Source: Ornithinicoccus hortensis (GTDB taxonomy: Bacteria > Actinomycetota > Actinomycetes > Actinomycetales > Dermatophilaceae). Taken from it: DNA of 64,000 bases. The stretch lies in NCBI RefSeq assembly GCF_006716185.1, contig NZ_VFOP01000001.1, positions 2,418,001-2,482,000 of the forward strand. Reading direction: 5' to 3'. The position numbers and the translations under genes were made by a program. This document shows positions 6,139 through 21,193 of this stretch, one piece after another. Within the stretch, counting starts at the first letter, position 1. Each line of letters starts with the position of its first letter. The notes beneath the pieces are model-generated. The model made no database searches and was not told the DNA's origin. It saw nothing but the letters and a program-made list of their open reading frames with translations.

Positions 6139-7395
6139 TCAGCCCTGGATGATCGTGCCCTTGCCGATCACCACGAGACCCGAATCGGTCACCGTGAAGC
6201 CCCGAGCCCGGTCCTCGTCGTGGTTGACCCCGATGCTGACCCCCGGCGGGATGACGACGTTCTTGTCGATGATGGCGCGGTGGATCTGGCAGCTGCGGCC
6301 CACGTCCACACCGTCCAACAGCACCGACTGGGACACCGCGCTGAAGCTGTGCACCCGCACCCGCGGGGACAGCACGGAGCCGCTGATCGACGCGCCGCTG
6401 ACCACGACCCCGGGGGAGACGGCCGAGTTGACCGCGTTGCCGACCCGGTCCTGCGACCCGTGCACGAACTTGGCCGGCGGGTGGTAGCCGTAGTCGGTGT
6501 AGATCGGCCACTCCTCGTTGTAGAGGTTGAAGATCGGGTGCACCGACACCAGGTCCATGTGGGCCTCGTAGTAGGAGTCGATGGTCCCGACGTCGCGCCA
6601 GTAGCCGAGGTCGCGCTCGGTGGTGCCCGGCACCTCGTTGCCCTTGAAGTCGTAGACGTGGGCACCGCCCTGCGCCACGAACGCAGGCACGATGTCGCCG
6701 CCCATGTCGTGCTTGGAGCCGGGCAGGTCCGCGTCCGCCGTGATCGCCTCCTCCAGCGTCTCGGCGCTGAACACGTAGTTGCCCATCGAGGCGAGCACCT
6801 CGTGCGGGCTGTCCGCCAGGCCCTTGGGGTCCGTGGGCTTCTCCAGGAACTCCTCGATCCTGGTGTCGCTGTCGTCGGCGACCTGGATCACCCCGAACTG
6901 GTCGGCCAGCGAGATCGGCTGCCGGATCGCGGCGACCGTGACGCCGGCCCCGGTCTCGATGTGCTGGGCCACCATCTGGGAGAAGTCCATCCGGTAGACG
7001 TGGTCGGCGCCGAGGACCAGCACGATGTCCGGCTTCTCGTCGTGGATCAGGTTCATGCTCTGGTAGATCGCGTCGGCGCTGCCCTCGAACCAGCTCTTGC
7101 CGCGGCGCTGCTGGGCGGGGACCGGGGCCACGTAGTTGCCGAGCAGGTTGGACATCCGCCACGTCTTCGTGACGTGGGTGTCCAGGCTCTGGGACTTGTA
7201 CTGGGTCAGCACGACGATCTTGAGGTAGCCGCTGTTCACCACGTTGGACAGGGCGAAGTCGATCAATCGGTAGATACCGCCGAACGGGACGGCCGGCTTC
7301 GCGCGGTCGGCGGTCAACGGCATCAGCCGTTTGCCCTCGCCACCGGCGAGCACGATTGCCAGAACCTTGGGGCGCGCAGTTCCTCGGGTCACCAT
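6139..7395 (-). CDS. glgC: Glucose-1-phosphate adenylyltransferase
   Basis: A 418-residue enzyme that makes ADP-glucose from glucose-1-phosphate and ATP, the committing step of bacterial glycogen synthesis. The nucleotidyltransferase signature [13 protein letters not shown] is at residues about 17-29, followed by the family blocks [17 protein letters not shown] and [14 protein letters not shown]. The C-terminus is a left-handed beta-helix region. It is divergent from glgA with a 65-bp shared promoter region. The ATG is preceded six bases upstream by a TAGGTT -10 box. Confidence 0.95.
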
Positions 7396-10297: not shown

Positions 10298-11055
10298 GCT
10301 GGGTCGAGGCCCTCGTCATCATCCTGGCCGGGATGGGGGCCGGCACCATCAACACGATCGTCGGGTCCGGGACCCTGATCACCTTCCCGACCCTGCTGTT
10401 CTTCGGCTACCCGCCCGTCTCGGCCAACATCTCCAACAGCCTCGGCCTGGTGGCCGGCGGGCTGTCCGGCGCCTGGGGCTACCGCAAGGAACTGGTGACC
10501 TCCCGCCGGATGCTCGGCAAGCTGGCGCCGGCCAGCTTCGCCGGCTCCGTCATCGGGGCCCTGTTGCTGCTCGTGCTGCCCGAGTCCGCCTTCGAGGCGA
10601 TCGTCCCGGTCCTCATCGCGCTCGCCCTGGTGCTGGTCGTGGCCGGCCCGCGGCTGAACCGGTGGGCGGCAGGACAGCACGCCCACCGGATGACCCGCGG
10701 CCGCTGGGTCGCCCTCATCGTCGGGGTCCTGGTGGCCGGGATGTACGGCGGCTACTTCGGGGCGGCCCAGGGGGTGCTGCTGATCGGCCTGATGAGCGTG
10801 CTGCTGCCGCTGGGCATCCAGGAGCTGAACGGCATCAAGAACGTGCTCGGGCTCATCGTGAACTTCGTGGCCGCCCTCACCTTCGTCATCGTCCAGCCCT
10901 CGCAGATCAACTGGACGATCGCCGGGCTCGTCGCGATCGGGGCACTGATGGGCGGGTTCATCGGGGCCCGCGTGGGACGGGCCATGCCGGCCTGGTTGCT
11001 GCGCGCGGTCATCGTCGTGATCGGCACCGTGGCCATCGTGGTCCTGCTTGTATGA
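10294..11055 (+). CDS. TauE/SafE (TSUP) family membrane permease
   Basis: A 253-residue integral membrane protein of the sulfite-exporter TauE/SafE family, with about eight hydrophobic helices arranged in two halves. The first half carries the family pattern GAGTINTIVGSG..ITFPTLLFFG, and the second carries GMYGGYFGAAQGVLL. Members move sulfur- or carboxyl-containing anions; the substrate here cannot be read. The GTG start overlaps the ATPase stop and its own stop overlaps the methyltransferase start, so three genes are translationally coupled. Confidence 0.85.
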   Translation: MSWVEALVIILAGMGAGTINTIVGSGTLITFPTLLFFGYPPVSANISNSLGLVAGGLSGAWGYRKELVTSRRMLGKLAPASFAGSVIGALLLLVLPESAFEAIVPVLIALALVLVVAGPRLNRWAAGQHAHRMTRGRWVALIVGVLVAGMYGGYFGAAQGVLLIGLMSVLLPLGIQELNGIKNVLGLIVNFVAALTFVIVQPSQINWTIAGLVAIGALMGGFIGARVGRAMPAWLLRAVIVVIGTVAIVVLLV

Positions 11056-11999
11056 CGCGGCGCGCCGCACCCGGTGATCGCCCGGAGACCCTGCCGGACG
11101 GCGTGACCTGGATCGAGGACGCCGCCGACCCCCGGGTGGCGGACTACTTCTCGCTGACCGACGTCGCCCTGCGACGGGTGCTGGAACCCGAGCGCGGGCT
11201 CTACCTCGCGGAGTCGGAGAAGGTCATCCGACGGGCGCTGGCCGCCGGCCACCGGCCCAGGTCGCTGCTGATGGCGCCCCGCTGGCTCACCGACCTCGGT
11301 GACCTCGTGGCCCGGGCGGCGGCCGACGGCATACCGGTGTATGCCGCGACCGCCCCGGTGATCGAGGCGATGACCGGCTTCCACCTGCACCGCGGCGCGC
11401 TGGGCTCGATGCAGCGCCCGGTCCTCGCGGACCCGGCGGAACTGCTCGCCGGGGCCCGGCGGGTGGCCGTGCTCGAGGACATCGTGGACCACACCAACGG
11501 GTGTGGTCCCAAACTAGCCCATCCGGAACCCGCCGCCGAGCCTCGCAGACGCAGTCGGATCGCGGTGCTGGAGGGGCTCGTTGACCATACCAACGTCGGC
11601 AGCGCCTTCCGTAATGCAGCCGCCTTGGGCCTCGATGCGGTGCTGGTGTCTCCGACCTGCGCTGACCCGCTGTACCGGCGCTCGGTACGGGTCTCGATGG
11701 GCACGGTCTTCCAAGTGCCGTGGACACGGATCCCCGATTGGACAAAGGGCATTGCGGAGCTCAAGGCGGCTGGCTATGTCCTGGCCGGCATGACGTTGGG
11801 GGAAGGCGCGATCACCCTCGACGAGCTGGTGGCCGAGGACCACGAGAAGCTCGCCCTTGTGTTCGGCACCGAAGGCCACGGCATCACACCGGAGACCGAC
11901 GCACTGCTCGATCGCCGGGTCACGATCCCGATGATGGGTGGCGTCGATTCGTTGAACGTGACAGCGGCAGCGGCCGTGGCGTTCTACGCGACGAGGTGA
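11052..11999 (+). CDS. TrmH/SpoU-family RNA methyltransferase, chimeric: native N-terminal half joined to island-borne C-terminal half
   Basis: A 315-residue SPOUT 2'-O-methyltransferase acting on rRNA or tRNA ribose. Residues 1 to about 149 (native codon use) hold the N-terminal substrate domain and the first SPOUT strand (VAVLEDIVDHTN). The sequence then leaves the native gene at about 11499. After 20 novel residues it repeats the same strand (IAVLEGLVDHTN) and completes the domain with N-x-G-x3-R, FGTEGHG and SLNV motifs. A displaced homologous 3' half sits at 20733-21193. The frame is intact across the junction, so a working enzyme with a 32-residue insertion is likely but unproven. ATG overlaps the upstream stop (ATGA). 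Confidence 0.85.
   Translation: MTRRAAPGDRPETLPDGVTWIEDAADPRVADYFSLTDVALRRVLEPERGLYLAESEKVIRRALAAGHRPRSLLMAPRWLTDLGDLVARAAADGIPVYAATAPVIEAMTGFHLHRGALGSMQRPVLADPAELLAGARRVAVLEDIVDHTNGCGPKLAHPEPAAEPRRRSRIAVLEGLVDHTNVGSAFRNAAALGLDAVLVSPTCADPLYRRSVRVSMGTVFQVPWTRIPDWTKGIAELKAAGYVLAGMTLGEGAITLDELVAEDHEKLALVFGTEGHGITPETDALLDRRVTIPMMGGVDSLNVTAAAAVAFYATR
11486..11509. repeat. Perfect inverted repeat at the left island junction
   Basis: GGACCACACC and GGTGTGGTCC form perfect 10-bp arms around a 4-base AACG loop. The left arm belongs to the native methyltransferase gene and the right arm is the first island sequence, so the palindrome is created exactly at the junction. Confidence 0.75.
11488..11499 (+). 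other. Left core of the island (att-like copy 1)
   Basis: ACCACACCAACG lies in the codons for D-H-T-N of the first SPOUT strand. Near-identical 12-mers occur at 11584-11595 (ACCATACCAACG) and 20733-20744 (ACCACATCAACG). They mark the native left edge, the island-borne gene half and the displaced native right half. Confidence 0.6.
11584..11595 (+). other. Island-internal copy of the core (att-like copy 2)
   Basis: ACCATACCAACG is at the start of the island-supplied methyltransferase half, one mismatch from the left core. It encodes the second D-H-T-N. Confidence 0.5.
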
Positions 12000-12093
12000 T
12001 GATGCGGGAATCCCGAGTGTCAGTCGTGCCCGATATCGTGAGAGCAAACCACCTAGCACCGTAATTGCGCAGTGGCGCGGAGGAGACAAACCT

Positions 12094-13665
12094 ATGGCAC
12101 CGACCACCAAAGAGGCGCAGCGTGCCGAGCTGCATAGGACCATCTGGCGCATCGCGAACGACCTGCGCGGCAGCGTCGATGGGTGGGACTTCAAGTCCTA
12201 CGTGCTGGGCATGCTGTTCTATCGCTTCATCTCCGAGAACCTCACGGCGTACCTCAACAAGAACGAGCACGATGCGGGTGACGTGTCGTTCGACTACCGG
12301 CTGGCGGCGGATTCTGACGCGGAGTTCGCGCGCGACGAGGTCGTCGCGGAGAAGGGGTTCTATATCCTGCCGTCCGACCTGTTCGCCAACGTCCGCGATC
12401 GTGCCGCGGGCGACGAGAACCTCAACGAGACGCTCGAGCGGGTCTTTAAGAACATCGAAGCGTCGGCGCTGGGGACGGATAGTGAGGATGACATCAAGGG
12501 TCTGTTCGATGATCTGGATGTCAACAGCAACAAGTTGGGCTCGACGGTTGCCAAGCGCAACCAGAAGCTGGTGAAGCTGCTCGACGCGATCGGTGACTTG
12601 CCTCTGGGGCGGTGGGAAGACAACTCGATCGACCTGTTCGGTGACGCCTACGAGTACCTGATGCAGATGTACGCCGCCAACGCCGGCAAGTCCGGTGGCG
12701 AGTACTACACGCCCCAGGAGGTCTCCGAGCTACTGGCGCGCATCACGGTGGTCGGCAAGACACAGGTCAACAAGGTCTACGACCCCGCCGTCGGATCGGG
12801 TTCGCTACTGCTGAAATTCGACAAGGTGCTCGGCAAGAACAACGTCCGCCAGGGGTTCTACGGCCAGGAGATCAACCTGACCACGTACAACCTCGCGCGG
12901 ATCAACATGTTCCTGCACGACGTCAACTACGCCGACTTCAACCTCGCCCACGGCGATACCCTGATCGATCCACAGCACTGGGACGACGAACCGTTCGAGG
13001 CGATCGTCTCCAACCCGCCCTACTCGATCAAGTGGGAGGGCGACGCCAACCCGCTGCTGATCAACGACGAGCGGTTCGCACCGGCAGGAGTCCTCGCGCC
13101 GAAGTCGAAGGCCGACTTGGCCTTCACGATGCACATGCTCAGCTGGCTGGCCGTCAACGGCACGGCGGCGATCGTTGAGTTCCCTGGCGTGCTGTACCGC
13201 GGCGGGGCGGAGAAGAAGATCCGCCAGTACCTCGTCGACAACAACTACGTCGACGCTGTCATCCAGCTTCCGCCGGACCTGTTCTTTGGCACGACGATCG
13301 CGACCTGCATCCTCGTGCTGAAGAAGTCGAAGAAGACCAGTGACGTGCTGTTCATCGATGCGTCGGCCGAGTTCAAGCGCGTTGGCAACAAGAACAAGCT
13401 GCTCGAGAAGCATCAGGAGAGGATCCTCGAGGCGTTCACGACGCGCGAGCTCGAGGACTACTTCACCGCCGTCGTGAGCAACGAGGACATCGCGGCGAAT
13501 GACTACAACATCGCCGTGTCGTCCTATGTCGAGGCAGAGGATACCCGCGAGGAAGTCGACATCACGGAGCTGAACGCCGAGATCGCGCGCATCGTCGCGC
13601 GCCAGGCAGAGCTTCGTACAGCGATCGACGAGATCGTGGCGGATCTGGAAGGTGCGTGGTCATGA
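12094..13665 (+). CDS. hsdM: Type I restriction-modification system, DNA methyltransferase subunit
   Basis: A 523-residue N6-adenine methyltransferase subunit. The N-terminal HsdM helical domain is followed by the catalytic domain, with the S-adenosylmethionine loop DPAVGSGSLL from residue 230 and the catalytic NPPY at 307-310. The C-terminus is helical, as expected for contact with HsdS. With HsdS it methylates the host's recognition sites; with HsdR it forms the restriction complex. A strong GGAGGAG precedes the ATG. It is first in a five-gene operon whose G+C is visibly lower than the flanking chromosome. Confidence 0.95.
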   Translation: MAPTTKEAQRAELHRTIWRIANDLRGSVDGWDFKSYVLGMLFYRFISENLTAYLNKNEHDAGDVSFDYRLAADSDAEFARDEVVAEKGFYILPSDLFANVRDRAAGDENLNETLERVFKNIEASALGTDSEDDIKGLFDDLDVNSNKLGSTVAKRNQKLVKLLDAIGDLPLGRWEDNSIDLFGDAYEYLMQMYAANAGKSGGEYYTPQEVSELLARITVVGKTQVNKVYDPAVGSGSLLLKFDKVLGKNNVRQGFYGQEINLTTYNLARINMFLHDVNYADFNLAHGDTLIDPQHWDDEPFEAIVSNPPYSIKWEGDANPLLINDERFAPAGVLAPKSKADLAFTMHMLSWLAVNGTAAIVEFPGVLYRGGAEKKIRQYLVDNNYVDAVIQLPPDLFFGTTIATCILVLKKSKKTSDVLFIDASAEFKRVGNKNKLLEKHQERILEAFTTRELEDYFTAVVSNEDIAANDYNIAVSSYVEAEDTREEVDITELNAEIARIVARQAELRTAIDEIVADLEGAWS

Positions 13666-14588
13666 CGGACATGCCCAACTGGGAAGGCTTCATGATCCCG
13701 ACGCTCAAGGTAATGAGCGATGGCATCATCCGCCACTGGCGCGAGTTTCAGCCTCTCGTAGCTGATCAGGTGCAGCTCACCGATGAGCAGAGGAAGGAGA
13801 TGCTTCCGTCCGGGAGCGCGCTCAAGTATGAGAACCGCATTGGCTGGGGCGTCTCGTTCTTGACGAACGTCGGCGCGCTCAGGCGTCCGAAACGCGGTCA
13901 CTACCAGATCACTGATGCCGGCAAGCAGCTCATCGAGCTGTTTCCGAACGGTGCCAAGGAACGTGACATCAAGGCGCTCGGTGCGGACCCCAGCTCGCCG
14001 ATCCGCGAGTACGTAGCGACCACGACCCGCAAGACGAGCGAGTCTGCAACGACCGCTCCGACAGAAGAGTCGTCGATGACTCCTACCGAGCAGGTGCAGA
14101 GCGGCATCGAGCGAATCCACGACGAGATCGCGGTCGAGCTGCTCGCCCGGCTGCAGGACAAAGACCCAGGCTTCTTTGAACAGGCGGTTGTCGATCTCCT
14201 GCTGTCAATGGGCTACGGCGGCACCACCGGGGCCGGCAGCGTCACCCAGCTCAGCAACGACGGAGGCATAGACGGTGTCATCGACCAGGACATCCTCGGC
14301 CTCAACCGCGTCTACATCCAGGCCAAGCGTTACCAAGACGGCAACACTGTCGGACGCCCCGACCTCCAGGCGTTCGTTGGAGCACTCAGCGGCAAAGCCG
14401 ACAGCGGCGTCTTCATCACCACCAGCCGCTTCTCCGACGGCGCACGTACCTACGCCGAGAACGTACCGACCCGCATCATCCTGATCGACGGCAAGCGCCT
14501 CACCAGCCTCATGATCCGGTACGGCGTCGGCGTGCAAGTGAAAGAGACCTATAAGGTCATAGAGATCGACGAGGACTTCTTCGCATGA
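13662..14588 (+). CDS. Mrr-like restriction endonuclease embedded in the type I operon
   Basis: A 308-residue protein in two parts. Residues 1 to about 110 form a winged-helix Mrr_N-type DNA-binding domain (LRRPKRGHYQITDAGKQLIE). Residues about 150-308 form an Mrr_cat endonuclease domain with GGIDG (D204) and Q220-A-K222, the D...QxK variant of the PD-(D/E)xK active site. Mrr enzymes cut methylated DNA (type IV). The start at 13662 overlaps the hsdM stop by ATGA, and its stop overlaps hsdS the same way, so it is co-translated with the type I subunits. How it avoids cutting DNA methylated by the adjacent HsdM is not evident. Confidence 0.85.
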   Translation: MTDMPNWEGFMIPTLKVMSDGIIRHWREFQPLVADQVQLTDEQRKEMLPSGSALKYENRIGWGVSFLTNVGALRRPKRGHYQITDAGKQLIELFPNGAKERDIKALGADPSSPIREYVATTTRKTSESATTAPTEESSMTPTEQVQSGIERIHDEIAVELLARLQDKDPGFFEQAVVDLLLSMGYGGTTGAGSVTQLSNDGGIDGVIDQDILGLNRVYIQAKRYQDGNTVGRPDLQAFVGALSGKADSGVFITTSRFSDGARTYAENVPTRIILIDGKRLTSLMIRYGVGVQVKETYKVIEIDEDFFA

Positions 14589-15805
14589 GCCGCATTGATA
14601 ACCTGATTCAGGAACTTTGCCCAGATGGGGTGGAGTTCGCGGAGCTTCAGGCTGTCTTCACGACCAAAGGCGGCTATACACCGTCGAAGAACGATCCGAC
14701 CGCTTGGGCCGATGGCACGGTTCCATGGTTTCGGATGGAAGACATTCGCGATAATGGGCGCGTTTTGGGGTCGTCGCTGCAGCAGATCAACGAGAGCGCA
14801 GTCAAAGGTGGAAGGCTGTTCCCTGCTAATTCGATCTTGGTCGCGACGTCGGCAACGATCGGCGAGCACGCACTTATTACGGTTCCGCACCTTTCGAACC
14901 AGAGGTTCACCTCACTCACGCTAAAGCCCGAGTTCGTTGATCGATTCGAGATCAAGTTCGTCTTCTATTACTGTTTCGTGCTTAATGAATGGTGTCGCAA
15001 CAATACGACAACATCGAGTTTCGCTTCTGTCGACATGTCCGGCTTTAAGCAGTTCAAGTTCCCCGTGCCGCCTCTCGAGGTGCAGCGCGAGATCGTGCGA
15101 GTACTGGATAAGTTCACTCAGCTGGAAGCGGAGCTGGAAGCGGAGCTGGAAGCCCGACGCGCCCAGTACGACTACTACGCGGGTGAGCTGCTGACGATCG
15201 ATGAAGGCGTCCGTCGGGTGCGCATTGGCGATGTCGCGACAATCGTTCGCGGGGCGTCACCGCGACCAATCCAGAAGTTCATCACTTCTGACCCTGAAGG
15301 CGTTCCGTGGATCAAGATCGGTGACGTTCCCGCCGACGGCAAGTACATCACCAGCACAGCACAGCGCGTGACGATCGAGGGGGCTGCGAAGTCGCGTCGT
15401 GTGTTGCCTGGTGACTTTGTGCTCTCGAACTCCATGAGCTTCGGTCGTCCCTATGTCTCGCAGATTGAGGGATGCATCCATGACGGATGGTTGGCGATCA
15501 GCGCCTTCGAGGACTCGTTTGAGCGCGACTATCTCTACTACCTGCTGCGCTCGACACCTGTACAGGAAGAGTTTGCGCGCAGGGCCGGCGCTGGCACGGT
15601 CAAAAATCTGAACGCGGACATCGTTCGATCCGTCGTGATTCCGGTACCGCCGCGCGCTGAGCAGAAGCGCGTGATCGATCTTCTTGATCATTTTGATGCC
15701 CTCGTCAACGACATCAGAATCGGGCTCCCAGCCGAGCTCGCTGTACGTCGCAAGCAGTACGAGTATTACCGCGACCGCCTGCTGACGTTCAAGGAGACTG
15801 TCTAG
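14585..15805 (+). CDS. hsdS: Type I restriction-modification system, specificity subunit
   Basis: A 406-residue HsdS with two target-recognition domains (about 1-165 and about 205-375). Each is followed by a conserved helix (VPPLEVQREIVRVLDKF and VPPRAEQKRVIDLLDHF). The central spacer carries a four-residue LEAE repeat (about 180-190) encoded by a 12-bp tandem repeat. In type IC enzymes the number of such repeats sets the gap in the bipartite DNA target. The recognition sequence cannot be predicted here. ATGA overlap with the Mrr-like gene. Confidence 0.93.
   Translation: MSRIDNLIQELCPDGVEFAELQAVFTTKGGYTPSKNDPTAWADGTVPWFRMEDIRDNGRVLGSSLQQINESAVKGGRLFPANSILVATSATIGEHALITVPHLSNQRFTSLTLKPEFVDRFEIKFVFYYCFVLNEWCRNNTTTSSFASVDMSGFKQFKFPVPPLEVQREIVRVLDKFTQLEAELEAELEARRAQYDYYAGELLTIDEGVRRVRIGDVATIVRGASPRPIQKFITSDPEGVPWIKIGDVPADGKYITSTAQRVTIEGAAKSRRVLPGDFVLSNSMSFGRPYVSQIEGCIHDGWLAISAFEDSFERDYLYYLLRSTPVQEEFARRAGAGTVKNLNADIVRSVVIPVPPRAEQKRVIDLLDHFDALVNDIRIGLPAELAVRRKQYEYYRDRLLTFKETV
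15122..15154 (+). repeat. 12-bp tandem repeat in the hsdS spacer
   Basis: CTGGAAGCGGAG occurs at 15122-15133 and 15134-15145, followed by a partial third copy (15146-15154). It encodes LEAELEAELEA in the spacer between the two recognition domains. Gain or loss of a unit would keep the frame and change spacer length by four residues. Confidence 0.8.
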
Positions 15806-16873
15806 ATGACGAACGTTCATGAAACGGTCGCGAGCTTGGCCGACGAGATACTAAACGACCTTGCCGGGTCGCGTACCGCCCTGATATACGCCCCGAACAC
15901 GATCGGTAAGACTCGGCTGGCGCAGTACTTAAAGGAGCGCGATCCAGATGGCGTGGTTCTCTACAACTCTTTTATAGAAGACGTGTTCACCTGGGACAAC
16001 GAGCGAGTTGTGCTCAAGGTAAACCCCGCGTCAGAGCTATTAGAAACGATCGTTACCCAAGGCCTTGACAGTGCGATCATCGACAACTTCAAAGCTTTCA
16101 CGAGCGGCAGAATTGAACCAAGGCTCGACTTCGAAAGCGGCGAGGTTGGCTTTGGCATACACAAGGGCGACGACAGTTCGACAGACGGCATCAAGATATC
16201 TAGAGCCGAAGAGAGCATATTTGTTTGGAGTGTCTATTACTCTGTATTGAGCGAGGCGGTTGAGACGCTTCGTGATAACCCCGAGCTGCGTTCTACGCCC
16301 AACTACGACCAGCTGACGCTTGCTGTCATTGATGACCCGGTGTCATCCATGGATGATGTGCGAATCGTATCAGTGGCTCTTGCGTTGGCGGAGCTTGTTA
16401 AGCGAGCATCAGAGTTGGACTTGAAGTTTGTTATCGCCACTCACCACGCTCTCTTCTTTAATGTCCTGTTCAACTCGCTCCGTCGGAGGAGTGACCGAGC
16501 GTACGTCCTTGCACAAAGCACAGCAGAGGGATGGACGCTTGCTAAGCAGTCGAAGGACGCACCTTTCAGTTACCATCTTGGGATCGTCAAGGATATACAA
16601 AAGGCGATATCTGAGAATGCGATCGAGCGAGTTCACTTCAATCAGTTCCGAGCGCTGCTCGAGAAGACGGCGAACTTCCTCGGCCATACAGGAGGCTGGG
16701 GCGAACTGCTGGTCGGGCCAGATGCCTCCCTGATGACCAAGATCCTCAATCTATACAGTCATGACCGATTCGCTGATATCGACACGTCCGCGGTAGCCGA
16801 AGAGTACAAGGACGCTTTTAAGAGCGAGTTCCAGGAGTTTCTGAAGACGTTCAGATGGGCGGATGCGGCATGA
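15806..16873 (+). CDS. PrrC/RloC-like ATPase, candidate anticodon nuclease
   Basis: A 355-residue ABC-type (AAA_13-like) ATPase lying directly after hsdS and overlapping hsdR by ATGA, the position prrC has in the E. coli prr locus. An unusual Walker A reads APNTIGKT (K35), missing one usual glycine. A signature-like ISRAEES (131-137), Walker B/D-loop VIDDPVSSMD (174-183) and a switch-type H213 follow. In the C-terminal third R282 and E286 lie on one helix and H319 follows in NLYSH. Anticodon nucleases PrrC and RloC use an R-x3-E ... H triad with E-to-H gaps of about 30. The role, tRNA cleavage when restriction is blocked by a phage, is inferred. Base composition is the lowest in the window by eye. 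Confidence 0.7.
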   Translation: MTNVHETVASLADEILNDLAGSRTALIYAPNTIGKTRLAQYLKERDPDGVVLYNSFIEDVFTWDNERVVLKVNPASELLETIVTQGLDSAIIDNFKAFTSGRIEPRLDFESGEVGFGIHKGDDSSTDGIKISRAEESIFVWSVYYSVLSEAVETLRDNPELRSTPNYDQLTLAVIDDPVSSMDDVRIVSVALALAELVKRASELDLKFVIATHHALFFNVLFNSLRRRSDRAYVLAQSTAEGWTLAKQSKDAPFSYHLGIVKDIQKAISENAIERVHFNQFRALLEKTANFLGHTGGWGELLVGPDASLMTKILNLYSHDRFADIDTSAVAEEYKDAFKSEFQEFLKTFRWADAA

Positions 16874-19800
16874 GCGATTCACCGGCACGCACCTTCGATC
16901 CGATTGCGATCTCGTCGGAGAGCACGGTCGTCGCTGAATACGTTCACGATCCGTCGCAGGCTGATGCGTATCAGTCGGAGTCTGCGCTCGAGAAAGAGAT
17001 GATCCGACTCCTGCAGGGGCAGGCATACGACTACCTGCCGATCACATCGGAGACAGATCTGGTTGCCAACCTCCGGGTGCAGCTCGAGAAGGTCAACAAA
17101 ATGACCTTCTCGGATGCCGAGTGGGAGCAGTTCTTCACGACGAAGATCGCAAGTGCCAACGACGGCATCATCGAGAAGACGGCGCGTGTCCAGGAGGATC
17201 ACGTCCAGATCCTCAGGCGCGACGATGGGACGACGAAGAACATCGCGCTGATCGACAAGACGAACATCCACAACAATCGACTGCAGGTCATCAACCAGTA
17301 CGAGATCGCGCGTGGCGAGGGTGATGCCGTCGAGGGTGGGGCGAGGTACGCCAACCGTTACGACGTGACCGTGCTCGTCAACGGGCTGCCGATGGTGCAC
17401 ATCGAACTGAAGCGCCGAGGCGTCGACATCCGGGAGGCCTTCAACCAGATCAGCCGGTACCAGCGCGACAGCTTCTGGGCGGGCTCGGGCCTGTTCGAGT
17501 ACGTACAACTGTTCGTGATCAGCAACGGCACGCTCACAAAGTACTACTCCAACAGCACTCGCAACAAGCACCTGGCCGAGCAGAAGAAGACTGGCAGTAC
17601 CAGCAAGGGCAGGAAGACGAGCAACTCGTTCGAGTTCACCAGCTGGTGGGCCGACGCGAACAACAAGCCGATCGCCGAGCTGACGGCATTTGTGAAGACG
17701 TTCTTCGCGAAGCACGCGCTGTTGAACATCCTGACGAAGTACTGCGTGCTCACCGCGGAGCGCGACCTGCTGGTGATGCGGCCGTACCAGATCGTTGCGA
17801 CTGAGCGGATCCTGCAGAAGATCCAGATCTCGACGAACTACAAGACGCTCGGCACACTCGATGCCGGCGGATACGTCTGGCACACCACAGGGTCGGGTAA
17901 GACGCTCACCTCGTTCAAGGCAGCGCAGCTCGCATCGAAGATGCCGAGTGTGGACAAGGTGCTGTTCGTCGTGGACCGCAAAGACCTCGACTATCAGACG
18001 ATGCGTGAGTACGACCGGTTCGAGAAGGGCGCGGCGAACTCGAACACATCCACGGCGGTGCTGAAGGGGCAACTGGAGGATCCAGGTGCGCGGATCATCA
18101 TCACGACGATCCAGAAGTTGTCGACGTTCATCAAGGCGAACAAGGGCCACGAAGTCTTCTCGGGCCACGCGGTGATCATCTTCGATGAGTGTCACCGGTC
18201 GCAGTTCGGTGACATGCACACCGACATCACGCGGGCGTTCAAGAAGTACAACCTTTTCGGGTTCACCGGTACGCCGATCTTTGCTTCGAACGCCGGCAGC
18301 GGTGGCAACCCTCAGTTGCGCACGACCGAGCAGGCGTTCGGCGACAAGTTGCACACGTACACGATCGTCGACGCCATCACCGACAAGAACGTGCTGCCGT
18401 TCCGGATCGACTACATCAACACCATCAAGGTCGGAAACCCCGACGACTCACAGGTGTCAGCGATCGACCGGGAGAGAGCTCTCCTGGACGTGCGCCGGAT
18501 CCGCGATGTCGTGGCGTACACGCTGGAGCACTTCGATCAGAAGACGAAGCGGTCGTCGAGTTACGAGCACGGCGTGGTGACGAACGTCGCCGACTCGGTG
18601 CGGGGCCGGCGTCAGGCGGAGGCACTCAAGGAGCGGAAGCGAGTGCGTGGGTTCAACGCGCTGTTCGCGACCGCGTCGATCGATGCCGCACGCCGTTACT
18701 ACAACCAGTTTCAGCTGCAGATGGAGCAGCTGCCGCCAGACAAGCGCCTGAAGGTCGGGCTGATCTTCAGCTACGGTGCGAACGAGGCTGAAGCCGACGG
18801 CATCCTCGATGATGAAGCGTTCGACACCGATGCGCTCGACCTTGACACGCGGTCGTTCCTGGAAGACGCGATCCAGGACTACAACGACATGTTCGGGACC
18901 AGCTACGACACGAGCGCGGATCGGTTCCAGAACTACTACAAGGACCTGTCGCAGCGGATGAAGAACCGCGAAATCGACCTGGTCATCGTGGTGAACATGT
19001 TCCTCACCGGTTTCGACGCGACGACGCTGAACACGCTGTTCGTCGACAAGAACCTGCGCGCGCACGGCCTGATCCAGGCGTACTCGCGCACGAACCGCAT
19101 CCTCAACTCGGTGAAGACCTACGGCAACATCGTCGCCTTCCGCGATCTCGAGGAGGAGACGAACGCTGCGCTGGAGCTGTTCGGCAACAAGGATGCCCGC
19201 GGCGTCGTCCTGTTGAAACCGTACGGCGACTACTACGGCGAGTACGTCGACAAGGTCACCGAACTGCTCACGCACTTCCCGATCGGGCAGCAGATCGTGG
19301 GGGAGCAGGCGCAGAAGGACTTCATCCAGCTGTTCGGCGCGATCCTGCGGCTGCAGAACATCCTCACGTCCTTCGACGACTTCGACGGCAACGATCCGCT
19401 CACCGAGCGACAGCGGCAGGACTACACCAGCGTCTACCTGCGGCTACGCGATGAGTTCACGCGCGATCGTGACGGCGATAGAGAAGTCATCAACGACGAC
19501 GTCGTGTTCGAGATCGAGCTCGTCAAGCAGGTCGAGATCAACGTCGACTACATCCTCATGCTCGTCGAGAAGCTCCGCGCCGAGAAGGGCGACGGCGACG
19601 ATAAGGAAGTCCGTGCCGAGATCACGCGCGCGGTCGACGCGAGCCCGACCCTGCGCAGCAAGCGCGACCTCGTCGAGGACTTCGTCGAGTCGGTGTCGCT
19701 GCAGGGCGCGGTCGATGAGCAGTGGCAGTCGTATATCTCCGCGAAGCGCGAGGCCGAGCTTCAGGAGCTCATCGAAACGCACAAGCTCAAGCTGGAGCAG

Positions 19801-20004
19801 ACGCGGTCGTTCGTGGATGCCGCGTTCCGGGACGGACAGCTGCGCACAGCGGGCACCGAGATCACCCGCATCCTGCCACCCGTGTCGCGGTTCAACCGCG
19901 AGTCCAACCATGGCGACAAGAAGAAGCGGGTCATCGAAGCGCTCTCCAGGTTCTTCGAGCGGTTCCGGGGACTTGCCACTGGGGGTGGGGAGCCTGGGGA
20001 CTGA
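16870..20004 (+). CDS. hsdR: Type I restriction-modification system, restriction/translocase subunit
   Basis: A 1044-residue HsdR. The N-terminal nuclease domain has D165 and E179-L-K181, the PD-(D/E)xK set. The superfamily-2 helicase motor has GSGKT (K344) and DECH (439-442), later SAT-like and QAYSRTNRIL blocks, and a helical C-terminus for docking to the methylase. It translocates DNA from unmodified sites and cuts at a distance. The start at 16870 is preferred over 16855 because ATGA overlaps the preceding stop and MSDSPARTF matches a normal N-terminus. Confidence 0.95.
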   Translation: MSDSPARTFDPIAISSESTVVAEYVHDPSQADAYQSESALEKEMIRLLQGQAYDYLPITSETDLVANLRVQLEKVNKMTFSDAEWEQFFTTKIASANDGIIEKTARVQEDHVQILRRDDGTTKNIALIDKTNIHNNRLQVINQYEIARGEGDAVEGGARYANRYDVTVLVNGLPMVHIELKRRGVDIREAFNQISRYQRDSFWAGSGLFEYVQLFVISNGTLTKYYSNSTRNKHLAEQKKTGSTSKGRKTSNSFEFTSWWADANNKPIAELTAFVKTFFAKHALLNILTKYCVLTAERDLLVMRPYQIVATERILQKIQISTNYKTLGTLDAGGYVWHTTGSGKTLTSFKAAQLASKMPSVDKVLFVVDRKDLDYQTMREYDRFEKGAANSNTSTAVLKGQLEDPGARIIITTIQKLSTFIKANKGHEVFSGHAVIIFDECHRSQFGDMHTDITRAFKKYNLFGFTGTPIFASNAGSGGNPQLRTTEQAFGDKLHTYTIVDAITDKNVLPFRIDYINTIKVGNPDDSQVSAIDRERALLDVRRIRDVVAYTLEHFDQKTKRSSSYEHGVVTNVADSVRGRRQAEALKERKRVRGFNALFATASIDAARRYYNQFQLQMEQLPPDKRLKVGLIFSYGANEAEADGILDDEAFDTDALDLDTRSFLEDAIQDYNDMFGTSYDTSADRFQNYYKDLSQRMKNREIDLVIVVNMFLTGFDATTLNTLFVDKNLRAHGLIQAYSRTNRILNSVKTYGNIVAFRDLEEETNAALELFGNKDARGVVLLKPYGDYYGEYVDKVTELLTHFPIGQQIVGEQAQKDFIQLFGAILRLQNILTSFDDFDGNDPLTERQRQDYTSVYLRLRDEFTRDRDGDREVINDDVVFEIELVKQVEINVDYILMLVEKLRAEKGDGDDKEVRAEITRAVDASPTLRSKRDLVEDFVESVSLQGAVDEQWQSYISAKREAELQELIETHKLKLEQTRSFVDAAFRDGQLRTAGTEITRILPPVSRFNRESNHGDKKKRVIEALSRFFERFRGLATGGGEPGD

Positions 20005-20110
20005 GGTCAGCACGAAGGGCGCTGGCGGCACAGCCGCTCACGCGCCACAATCTGCGCATTCAGCCAGGCACGCAAGGGTGCGGCATGTTCGAGCATCTCG
20101 GCCTGGCCGT

Positions 20111-20416
20111 TCAACCGCGCACCGCTTCGGCCACGGCCGTCTTGATCCGCGCGGCCAGGTCGTCGACGAGTTGCTGGCACAGCGCGATCCCGGCCGCACC
20201 GTCCTGCTCTTGCCGGCACTCGGACAAGCGTGCCTCGTCGATCGGGATCCGCTTGGCGAATCCACGAGTGGTGCTGACCTCGATGTACGCGCCGGTCTCA
20301 CCGGGCCCGTCGGCTCCCAGCCGCATCTTCACAGGAGTGTCCCACGGGACGTCGGCCGTCTGCATCGCCGCGTTGCCGAAGTTGGACGCGCTCGTGTTGA
20401 ACGGGCTGCTGATCAT
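20111..20416 (-). CDS. Small hypothetical protein at the right end of the island (101 aa)
   Basis: No family recognised. The protein starts MISSPFNTSASNFGNAAMQ and ends in an amphipathic stretch (LCQQLVDDLAARIKTAVAEA). It has no signal peptide or membrane helix. The start is supported by AAGGAGG four to ten bases upstream. It is antisense to the island operon, converging on hsdR with a 106-bp gap. A strong ribosome site and clean frame argue that it is real. It could be a defence accessory or a remnant of the donor neighbourhood. Confidence 0.55.
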   Translation of the reverse strand: MISSPFNTSASNFGNAAMQTADVPWDTPVKMRLGADGPGETGAYIEVSTTRGFAKRIPIDEARLSECRQEQDGAAGIALCQQLVDDLAARIKTAVAEAVRG

Positions 20417-20732
20417 CAATGCCCCTCCTTCCTCGAATGCTCGGCGATCTCGCAGTGTGGCACCGTTCGGCGAAACCACCACCTCGCTCGGTGTGTCCGA
20501 CGTTCCAATCTACATTGCAGGACGGCCCGCATCCCCGTCAGCACGCCACCTGGACAAGTGCCGGAGCCGTCTCGATCTCATCGCAGTTCGGCGCTTCGGC
20601 ATCCTCACTCACTGCGATACAAAAGCCAGAGTCGTCGCTATCGGTATGATCTATCCAATTGCTCATGCGATAAGCGCTTATGCCGTTGTGCCTGGTCAGG
20701 CGCGGTTTCCTTGCAGCCGATCGTAGCCGGAC
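20417..20732. other. Right margin of the island, no gene seen
   Basis: About 316 bases of lower-GC sequence between the small reverse gene and the displaced methyltransferase half. It holds a 12-bp palindrome at 20670-20681. I see no integrase, transposase or tRNA fragment. Confidence 0.5.
20670..20681. repeat. 12-bp perfect palindrome near the right island end
   Basis: ATAAGCGCTTAT is self-complementary and lies 50 bp inside the right junction. It may be an operator or recombination-related; function unknown. Confidence 0.4.
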
Positions 20733-20744
20733 ACCACATCAACG
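20733..20744 (+). other. Right core of the island (att-like copy 3)
   Basis: ACCACATCAACG, one mismatch from the left core at 11488-11499. It marks where native sequence resumes. Confidence 0.6.
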
Positions 20745-21193
20745 TCGGCGCCGTGTTCCGCTCGACGGCCGCGCTGGGGGTCGACGCCGTGCTGGTGACG
20801 CCCCGGTGCGCCGACCCGCTCTACCGGCGCTCGGTGCGCGTGTCGATGGGCACCGTCTTCCAGGTGCCGTGGACCCGGATCGACCCGTGGCCGGACGGTA
20901 TCGACCTGCTGCGCCGGGCCGGCTTCACGGTCGCCGCGTTCGCCCTCGAGGAGGACTCCGTCTCGCTGGACGACCTGGCCGCCCGACCCCCGGAGCGGCT
21001 CGCCCTCGTGCTCGGCACGGAGGGAGACGGGCTGGGCCCCCGGACCATCGCCGGGGCGGATCTGACGGTCCGGATCCCGATGGCCGGCGCCGTGGACTCG
21101 CTGAACGTTGCCGCGGCCTCGGCCGTCGCGTTCTGGGCGCTGCGACGGTCTGGTGCCGACACCCGGGGCTCAACCGCAGTGGGCGAAGGATGA
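20733..21193 (+). pseudogene. Displaced native 3' half of the TrmH/SpoU methyltransferase gene
   Basis: The reading frame beginning at the core ACCACATCAACG encodes NVGAVFRSTAALGVDAVLV and continues through the SPOUT motifs LGTEGDG and SLNVAAASAV to the native stop at 21193. It has no start codon, promoter or ribosome site of its own. Joined to the native left half at 11499 it would give an uninterrupted gene of normal length. High-GC native codon use contrasts with the island copy at 11500-11999, which shares the block ADPLYRRSVRVSMGTVFQVP. Confidence 0.88.

Follow-up and report, generated by a model that had tools for sequence, protein, structure and literature searches.

The window, that is the whole stretch of 64,000 nucleotides of the Ornithinicoccus hortensis genome that was analysed, holds a TrmH/RlmB-like methyltransferase gene whose two ends are separated by restriction genes. 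How could such a cargo enter a protein gene that is still open, and which enzyme would have placed it there? A preliminary description, made from the letters alone, had seen an integrative element that repairs its protein-gene target and carries a restriction payload. This reading is supported by the recurrence of the insertion and by the lack of paired full genes in relatives. The observation is confirmed, and it was understated.

A methyltransferase gene interrupted and rebuilt

The native frame starts at 11052 on the forward strand, runs through 11499 into foreign sequence and stops at 11999, as was initially described. It encodes a chimera of 315 residues, recognized with Pfam and modelled with AlphaFold. 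The native N-terminal half (11052–11499), ending with residues VLEDIVDHTN, is followed by the left end of the element, translated as a linker that constitutes the scar (11500–11555), and by an element-borne SPOUT half (11556–11996). The latter contains a second DHTN(VG) site (11583–11600), so that a target-like sequence is regenerated by the element. The native C-terminal half is stranded at 20745–21193, on the same strand and without a start of its own. Pfam and NCBIfam assign the target gene to the SpoU/TrmH family; the Pfam SpoU_methylase profile matches residues 170–312 of the chimera and residues 5–137 of the frame 20723–21190. The carried and stranded halves share 63% protein identity.

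The best of five AlphaFold models of the chimera has a pLDDT of 82. It shows a complete SPOUT domain; no strand is formed by the motif's first copy, and residues 147–155 are disordered. The best matches in the PDB are 23S rRNA 2′-O-methyltransferases, with a full-length rmsd of about 15, indicating that the domains are placed differently. The codons of the carried half bear the mark of purifying selection, with dN/dS values of 0.02–0.06 in four pairwise comparisons among sister copies. The chimeric enzyme is presumed to be active.

Positions 11500–20744 form a site-specific insertion of 9,245 bp, with a GC content of 60.1% versus 71.8 and 71.7% in the flanks. Joining the flanks without it yields an open gene of 298 codons, as the preliminary description had anticipated, the product of which is 79.7% identical to the orthologue of Ornithinimicrobium sediminis (L028), without any gap. 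The latter is uninterrupted and provides the empty site: in the alignment the two flanks of the window abut at 10412/10413, about 2.2 kb of flank further right being unaligned. The element therefore has the precise ends and the empty site by which genomic islands are recognized.

The 12-bp sequence previously taken as the shared core of the junctions is indeed found at 11488, 11584 and 20733, and only there when both strands of the window are searched with up to one mismatch. Its role as a core was not upheld, as the repeat mostly consists of homologous D-H-T-N codons, and two of its three copies mark one and the same position in a pair of homologous genes. What most att junctions have in common is instead approximately AACGT. 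The attL core of the window reads AACGG (11496–11500, forward strand), the seven sister copies having AACGT, and the exchange maps to the AAC codon. The attR core is AACGT (20741–20745, forward strand). It is preceded by the conserved right end of the element (20483–20740), which terminates in GGACACCACATC.

Cargo and recurrence of the element

The payload is largely that of the preliminary description. Five genes on the forward strand, annotated with Pfam and PADLOC, encode a predicted type I methyltransferase subunit HsdM (12094–13665), a predicted Mrr-type (type IV) restriction endonuclease (13656–14588), a specificity subunit HsdS (14585–15805), a PrrC-family anticodon nuclease (15806–16873; PADLOC PrrC profile, E 7.2e-91) and an HsdR with an EcoR124_C domain (16855–20004). 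The HsdM, HsdS and HsdR domains are all present and the genes are open, with a predicted function in restriction and methylation. A small open reading frame of 123 codons without assigned function lies on the reverse strand (20111–20482).

Insertion at the same place recurs across many genera; absence of such recurrence had been named beforehand as evidence against an integrative element. The scar is real and is not peculiar to O. hortensis: duplication of the motif at the same junction was found at 15 of the 80 loci retained for comparison. These 15 and L033, which has two halves and no scar, make up the element set of 16 loci. The motif scan also flagged L040, excluded because of a 32-residue gap in its gene alignment, and missed the truncated L024, which has the scar. 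A second half was present within the flank examined at 10 of the 16 loci and somewhere in the same genome for 15 (on another contig for L022; L023 has none). No second half was found in the flank examined at the 64 loci outside this set.

The element of the window (W-type), with the same end sequences, occupies the same site in eight genomes of unrelated hosts (the window, L018, L019, L021, L024 and L163–L165). Nucleotide identity to the window is 85–95% over long shared blocks in L018, L019, L021 and L024, and 91–96% in L163–L165. HsdM and HsdR are 91–98% identical to those of the window, whereas HsdS has diverged (33–39% identity with the seven sister elements); PrrC and Mrr are present in some sisters and absent from others. 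Cargo varies between elements and is largely defensive, with AbiD, GmrSD-type, OLD-like and FRG-domain genes elsewhere, as judged from selected open reading frames submitted to Pfam and PADLOC. The 2.7-kb element of L064 has a single long open reading frame without match in Pfam, PADLOC or NCBIfam. Cores are altered in L023, L026, L041 and L064. Of 12 elements examined for dyad symmetry of the reconstructed attP, seven gave p values no higher than about 0.05, with four copies of one element among them; values were higher in L025, L026, L038, L041 and L064. At L039, the same restriction genes adjoin an unscarred methyltransferase gene.

Two full methyltransferase genes in relatives, which had been set in advance as a refutation, were not seen among the matches listed for 30 other genomes of the genus. 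In 29 of them, these matches include a single place with an adjoining pair of N- and C-terminal halves, and in the draft genome G023 only weak paralogues.

In a tree of 111 halves, 14 of the 17 carried halves group in one clade (support 1.00), together with some intact genes; the other three are those of L044, L054 and L064. Several stranded halves group with the lineage of their host: L018 with Arsenicicoccus cauae (0.97), L024 with Kocuria (0.87) and L107 with Arthrobacter (0.86). Those of L019, L033 and L110 fall inside the carried-half clade, and those of L021, L025, L038, L105 and L111 form a long-branch group away from their hosts. It was considered that those genes of the element clade that lack a scar could be trimmed, domesticated scars. 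This is not claimed, as a long linker is also seen where there is no second half, in the genes L167–L170, L174 and L175.

Recombinases and related phages

No integrase of its own was found in the element of the window, nor in 18 other resolved elements, save for a dead relative and one fragment. Inside the elements of these 19 carrier genomes, there is no tyrosine integrase (PF00589) and no intact serine recombinase; PF00239 matches are confined to the dead relative (8 genomes) and to a fragment in L033, which lies near the right end of the element. In the twentieth carrier, G062 (L022), the element is divided between two contigs. The one that bears its right end also has three PF00589 matches (C44:1563-3952), possibly inside the element. 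The host genome of the window encodes a single PF00239 protein, far from the element, and at E 1e-5 no such protein is found in carrier G097.

Nine other elements encode a protein at their right end that was considered as the integrase, since it matches small serine recombinases in Pfam. It resembles the Gin/γδ resolvase family (PDB 4m6f, 1gdt) over nearly its whole length, but lacks the catalytic serine and the DRLGR residues of active enzymes, and was rejected on this ground. The serine is lost in all nine copies. Among the eight that could be aligned, Ser10 and Asp67 are absent from all, and Arg68 and Arg71 from seven each; the frameshifted copy of L022, outside that alignment, has an alanine in place of the serine. 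The dead recombinase appears to be a single old lineage under constraint. It may be a DNA-binding accessory or regulatory protein and is a candidate control factor. It had no match in phages and six in plasmid records, below 60% identity. Its predicted structure is of low confidence (pLDDT 62, pTM 0.37).

A similar layout was found in Streptomyces phages Kamino (PP750867) and Sitrop (MT701598), the layout having been examined in 3 of 37 phage records. Both have a trmH 3′ half with a linker and a second DHTN motif, as the element does. Next to this half, on the opposite strand, is a large serine integrase gene, at the position where the right end of the element would be; the element has no such gene. 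The sequence GTGGGCGC, common to both phages and to the host codons, is slightly to the right of the AAC of the elements when read by eye, and the att arms differ from those of the elements. These phages were thus rejected as helpers and are regarded as a parallel. They are whole phages with an integrase, whereas none was found in the resolved elements; no defence cassette was seen in the phage stretches read, whereas the elements carry mostly defence genes.

No helper integrase with a trmH target was found in Micrococcales. Kamino-like integrases are present in 30 of 327 genomes of the order, none beside a trmH half (30 of 33 matches inspected, about 1.5 kb on each side), and in 5 of 345 genomes of the class, again none beside a trmH half. 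Viral contigs gave no match with the half of the window and three loci with alignment A2 (L210, L211 and L212), L211 and L212 being whole genes. A plasmid match (H21) is listed as an 822-bp RNA methyltransferase gene and was discarded; an att-like pattern in L213 was attributed to chance, and a further search for att patterns returned no match. No paper on such elements at trmH was among the results listed by literature searches. TrmH does not occur in the available part of PMC11536984, and neither TrmH nor the word methyltransferase in that of PMC10656467. According to the accessible part of another paper (PMC10654092), a mycobacterial prophage has its site in a SpoU-like gene, at codon 6.

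Proposed mechanism, alternatives and known systems

We consider it very likely, with a probability of roughly 0.85, that 11500–20744 is a horizontally acquired, site-specific and mobile defence element of about 9.2 kb that has no integrase and rebuilds its target. Since a search of the element revealed no recombinase, the enzyme that integrated it most likely acted in trans and was probably a serine integrase. The attP of a circular form would consist of the right end (...GACACCACATC), the short core AACGT and the left end (GTGTGGTCCCAAAC...), followed by the in-frame linker and the complete SPOUT half; the expected circular junction is GGACACCACATC-AACGT-GTGTGGTCCC. Recombination in the region of the AAC codon (Asn149) of the host gene would put the host N-terminal half in frame with the carried half, so that the gene would be rebuilt at once, and would leave the original half stranded at a distance of 9 kb. 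The start of the carried half is upstream of its own D-H-T-N; the duplicated motif therefore falls in a disordered linker, the SPOUT domain is complete, and a target-like sequence is kept at the locus. The scar would thus be part of the design of the element, a putative vehicle for anti-phage genes, here type I restriction and the PrrC anticodon and Mrr nucleases. Such elements form a family with diverse and mostly defensive cargo.

Among the alternatives, the one that survives best, with a small share of the probability, is that the enzyme acting in trans is a tyrosine recombinase, either a phage integrase or Xer. The inverted arms ACACC...GGTGT around an AACGT-containing spacer would also suit tyrosine core sites, and PF00589 proteins are encoded in all 20 carrier genomes, including the three on the right-end contig of G062. 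Against this, the common core amounts to very few bases and is not constant, several junctions departing from it; a large serine integrase is the enzyme of those phages in which this target layout was seen, and nine elements have a serine-recombinase relative at their right end.

Slightly less probable is a relic: a prophage or conjugative element that integrated long ago with an integrase of its own, and of which attL, the gene half and some of the defence genes are all that is left, its copies being now immobile. The position of the integrase gene in Kamino and Sitrop, at that of the element's right end, the fragment kept in L033 near this end, and the scars of L023 and L166, which lack a second half, are what such decay could leave. 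But the same element is present with intact ends and high nucleotide identity in several genera, which argues that it moved in its integrase-free form, and no integrase was found in the 19 resolved carriers.

It is improbable that the element is autonomous through an unrecognized recombinase among its own genes, such as the small reverse-strand frame. This frame, at the right end, is near-identical in seven of the eight W-type elements (98–100% identity in six of the seven sisters, 73% in L021), and in L115 a relative (32% identity) has an intact serine recombinase gene in its vicinity. Yet it is short, matches no family in Pfam, PADLOC or NCBIfam, and among 13 stretches compared was present only in three W-type copies. 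A history without any site-specific event, in which two full methyltransferase genes came to flank a restriction locus by ordinary homologous replacement or by duplication, could draw on the homology of the halves (63% protein identity) and on the unscarred gene at L039, but is very improbable, as the gene copy on the right is incomplete in the window, the empty site of L028 and the gapless restored gene contradict it, and the same junction is found in unrelated hosts with different cargo.

Target rebuilding by an integrase-free element suggests that defence genes could cross genera without a recognizable integrase of their own while sparing the gene at the landing site. The latter offers a fixed address for finding new defence genes, the long open reading frame of L064 being an example. 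What moves defence islands becomes testable here, since the att sites are located to within a few bases and there is a candidate control factor in the dead recombinase. More tentatively, one may envisage an actinobacterial immunity cassette system, in which integrase-free cassettes dock at one methyltransferase codon, each with a replacement half that spares the gene and leaves the next site, and are mobilized in trans by the serine integrases that phages or other elements encode, under the control of dead serine recombinases recruited once.

The closest known systems combine some of these features. The SCC elements of staphylococci also have a SPOUT-class rRNA methyltransferase gene as their target and often carry type I restriction genes. 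They are inserted by large serine recombinases, encoded by their own ccr genes, at the end of rlmH, and bring no replacement half. In contrast, the element of the window brings such a half, targets a SpoU/TrmH-family gene, and has no ccr genes, the sole PF00239 protein of the host being encoded elsewhere. Other islands, of which e14 in icd is an example, repair the 3′ end of the protein gene they enter. They likewise supply a homologous gene end and displace the original, but carry an integrase; we know of none with a duplicated motif and linker. The proximity of PrrC to type I hsd genes is that of EcoprrI-type loci, whereas in the window these genes are on a mobile element and Mrr is added.

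A target-rebuilding element in a methyltransferase gene

The preliminary description of an insertion in a TrmH/RlmB-like methyltransferase gene is borne out, and the case is more general than was stated. The insert belongs to a family of target-rebuilding defence elements that occupy one methyltransferase codon and, where resolved, have no recognised integrase. Target-restoring islands, defence islands and serine integrases aimed at protein genes are each already known. Their combination at a methyltransferase gene, with target rebuilding, defence cargo and no recognised integrase, was not found in the part of the published literature that was searched.

In the window genome, a single contig of 3.94 Mb, the native frame opens at 11052, continues past 11499 into foreign DNA and stops at 11999, and the original C-terminal half resumes at 20745. 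The GC content of the insert (11500–20744) is 60.1% versus 71.8 and 71.7% in the flanks. The genes inside are hsdM, one for an Mrr-type nuclease, hsdS, one for a PrrC-family nuclease, and hsdR, along with a small minus-strand ORF. Joining the flanks yields an open gene of 298 residues, 79.7% identical without gaps to that of Ornithinimicrobium sediminis (L028), which is uninterrupted at the insertion point. In other genomes of the same genus (n = 30), a single adjoining pair of N- and C-terminal halves is found in 29, and the draft G023 has weak matches only, among the matches listed. The 12-bp repeat reported at 11488, 11584 and 20733 is present there, with no other copy in the window at up to one mismatch.

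Five models were made of the chimeric protein. In the best one, the SPOUT domain is complete and begins at the second copy of the DHTN motif (strand 168–173); the first copy forms no strand and residues 147–155 are disordered. The best structural matches are 23S rRNA 2'-O-methyltransferases. The chimera is predicted to be a working enzyme.

Recurrence of the scar and spread of one element

The chimeric protein was searched against a species-level genome collection, and the best 80 of 589 confirmed loci were retained. The same scar is found in 15 of them: host ...VLEDIVDHTN, then the element linker, then a second ...RIAVLEGLVDHTNVG. With L033, which has two halves and no scar, they form a set of 16 loci. 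The second half lies in the flanking stretch at 10 of these and somewhere in the genome for 15 (on another contig for L022); for L023, it is absent from the whole genome at E 1e-15. None of the remaining 64 loci has a second half in the flanking stretch. In an order-wide sample, the chimera was matched at E 1e-70 or better in 28 of 396 genomes, and long stretches were taken for 13 of the 28. Six bear the scar (L163, L164, L165, L166, L171 and L172), L166 having no second half within 19.9 kb; L173 has two halves, the first gene being without scar; six have neither scar nor second half (L167, L168, L169, L170, L174 and L175). Counting the window genome and G101 (matching that of L020 in coordinates), at least 8 of the 396 genomes are scarred, 13 further matches being outside the long-stretch set. 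At L023 (2662–3552) and L166, the element may have been lost and its chimeric gene retained. The right junction of L173 (G301, around 6700–7300) resembles an older element's left end, as in tandem use of the site; a third SPOUT-half fragment, inside the element of L027 and at 6957 in L105, is of the same kind.

The end sequences of the window element recur in Arsenicicoccus bolidensis (L018), Leucobacter chironomi (L019), Kocuria subflava (L024) and three further genomes (L163–L165), and, slightly diverged, in Brevibacterium sp. (L021). Long common blocks are 85–95% identical to the window in L018, L019, L021 and L024, and 91–96% in L163–L165. Identity to the window proteins is 91–98% for sister HsdM, 91–96% for HsdR and 33–39% for HsdS (seven copies, including L024). 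Mrr is present in six and PrrC in four of these eight elements. The carried half has a dN/dS of 0.02–0.06 (four comparisons). In Brevibacterium luteolum (L039:10397–16963), an unscarred trmH adjoins the same set of restriction genes (93% for both HsdM and HsdR); this locus has no second half and no small ORF.

Point of exchange and recombinases

Comparison of the left (attL) and right (attR) junctions of 12 elements maps the exchange to the AAC codon: upstream of it, attL agrees with the host and attR with the element; downstream, the two are swapped. Junction variants occur at L023, L026, L041 and L064. Inverted arms are seen in the reconstructed circle site (attP), reading ACACC...GGTGT in several elements. 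Arm symmetry reaches p ≈ 0.05 or less in a shuffle test for 7 of the 12 (the window, L018, L019, L020, L021, L022 and L027), four of which are copies of one element, and does not for the other five. Integration would probably be carried out by a serine integrase supplied in trans.

Profiles for serine recombinases (PF00239) and tyrosine integrases (PF00589) were searched at E 1e-5 in 20 carrier genomes, L023 and L044 being outside the test. In the 19 genomes with the element on one contig, PF00589 had no match inside it, and PF00239 matched a right-end protein in eight and a fragment in G068 (L033). The element of the twentieth genome, G062, is split over contigs, one of which has three PF00589 matches that could lie inside the element. 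These matches stand in a row (G062:C44:1563–3952) on the contig with the right end of the element; three in a row also occur at G000:C1:10815–13182 in the window genome. The window genome has a sole PF00239 match (G000:C1:466187-466618), within the 478-aa ORF of a large recombinase located away from the element.

The right-end protein, encoded on the minus strand by the last gene before attR, is found in L020, L022 (frameshifted), L025, L027, L038, L041, L054, L171 and L172. Its catalytic serine is replaced by Thr, Gly or Ala in all nine; in the aligned copies, Asp67 is lost in 8/8, and Arg68 and Arg71 each in 7/8. Nine close relatives with a complete N-terminus (L112-L120) keep the Ser, the Asp and both Arg; none has a trmH half within ~1.5 kb, trmH being at another place in their genomes. 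The eight aligned, catalytically dead copies form a single clade (support 1.00), with a dN/dS of 0.27–0.46 (six pairs, three near saturation). Genomes of the order have intact small serine recombinases close to the dead family (L112-L121), in a variety of contexts. The elements of the window type are without the dead recombinase gene and have a small ORF near the right end. That of the window (20111–20482) is related, at 32% identity over 101 residues, to one in another genome (L115:3049–3369) that lies close to an intact gene for a serine recombinase.

Origin of the halves and cargo

A tree was built with 111 halves: 17 carried by elements, 19 stranded, and intact genes. Fourteen of the 17 carried halves are in one clade (support 1.00), together with intact genes of Microbacterium, Brachybacterium and others, and with the stranded halves of L019, L033 and L110. 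Outside are the carried halves of L044, L054 and L064, that of L054 grouping with its own stranded half. The stranded halves of L021, L025, L038, L105 and L111 form a long-branch group, as do L044 and L064. The stranded halves of L018, L024 and L107 join the host lineage. Two loci of the window's genus, L008 and L010, stand at zero distance from L028 and L031, both of Ornithinimicrobium, which is thus probably the genus of the window genome.

A related half was found in 37 of 50,697 phage records (E 1e-5). In Streptomyces phages Kamino and Sitrop, the two for which the layout was read, it adjoins a large serine integrase gene, and a host-like GTGGGCGC is followed by an in-frame linker and a second DHTN motif. 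The side bearing the integrase gene becomes the right end, which is where the defence elements carry the dead recombinase.

The spacing between halves ranges from 2.7 kb (L064) to 37 kb (L026). L020 and L038 carry a different type I system with an FRG-domain protein, most parts being 91–97% identical between the two; L041, a type I-like locus and a GmrSD-type protein; L033, AbiD; L054, an OLD-like ATPase plus a large protein that matches NACHT weakly; L026 and L027, AAA_13 proteins, L026 also bearing other genes. Part of the cargo is non-defence or unrecognised: L044 carries an epimerase and an exchanger, and the tested ORFs of L025, L022 and L064 had no defence match. The single long ORF of the 2.7-kb element (L064:10960–13173, 738 aa), which had no match in Pfam, PADLOC or NCBIfam, is a candidate new defence gene.
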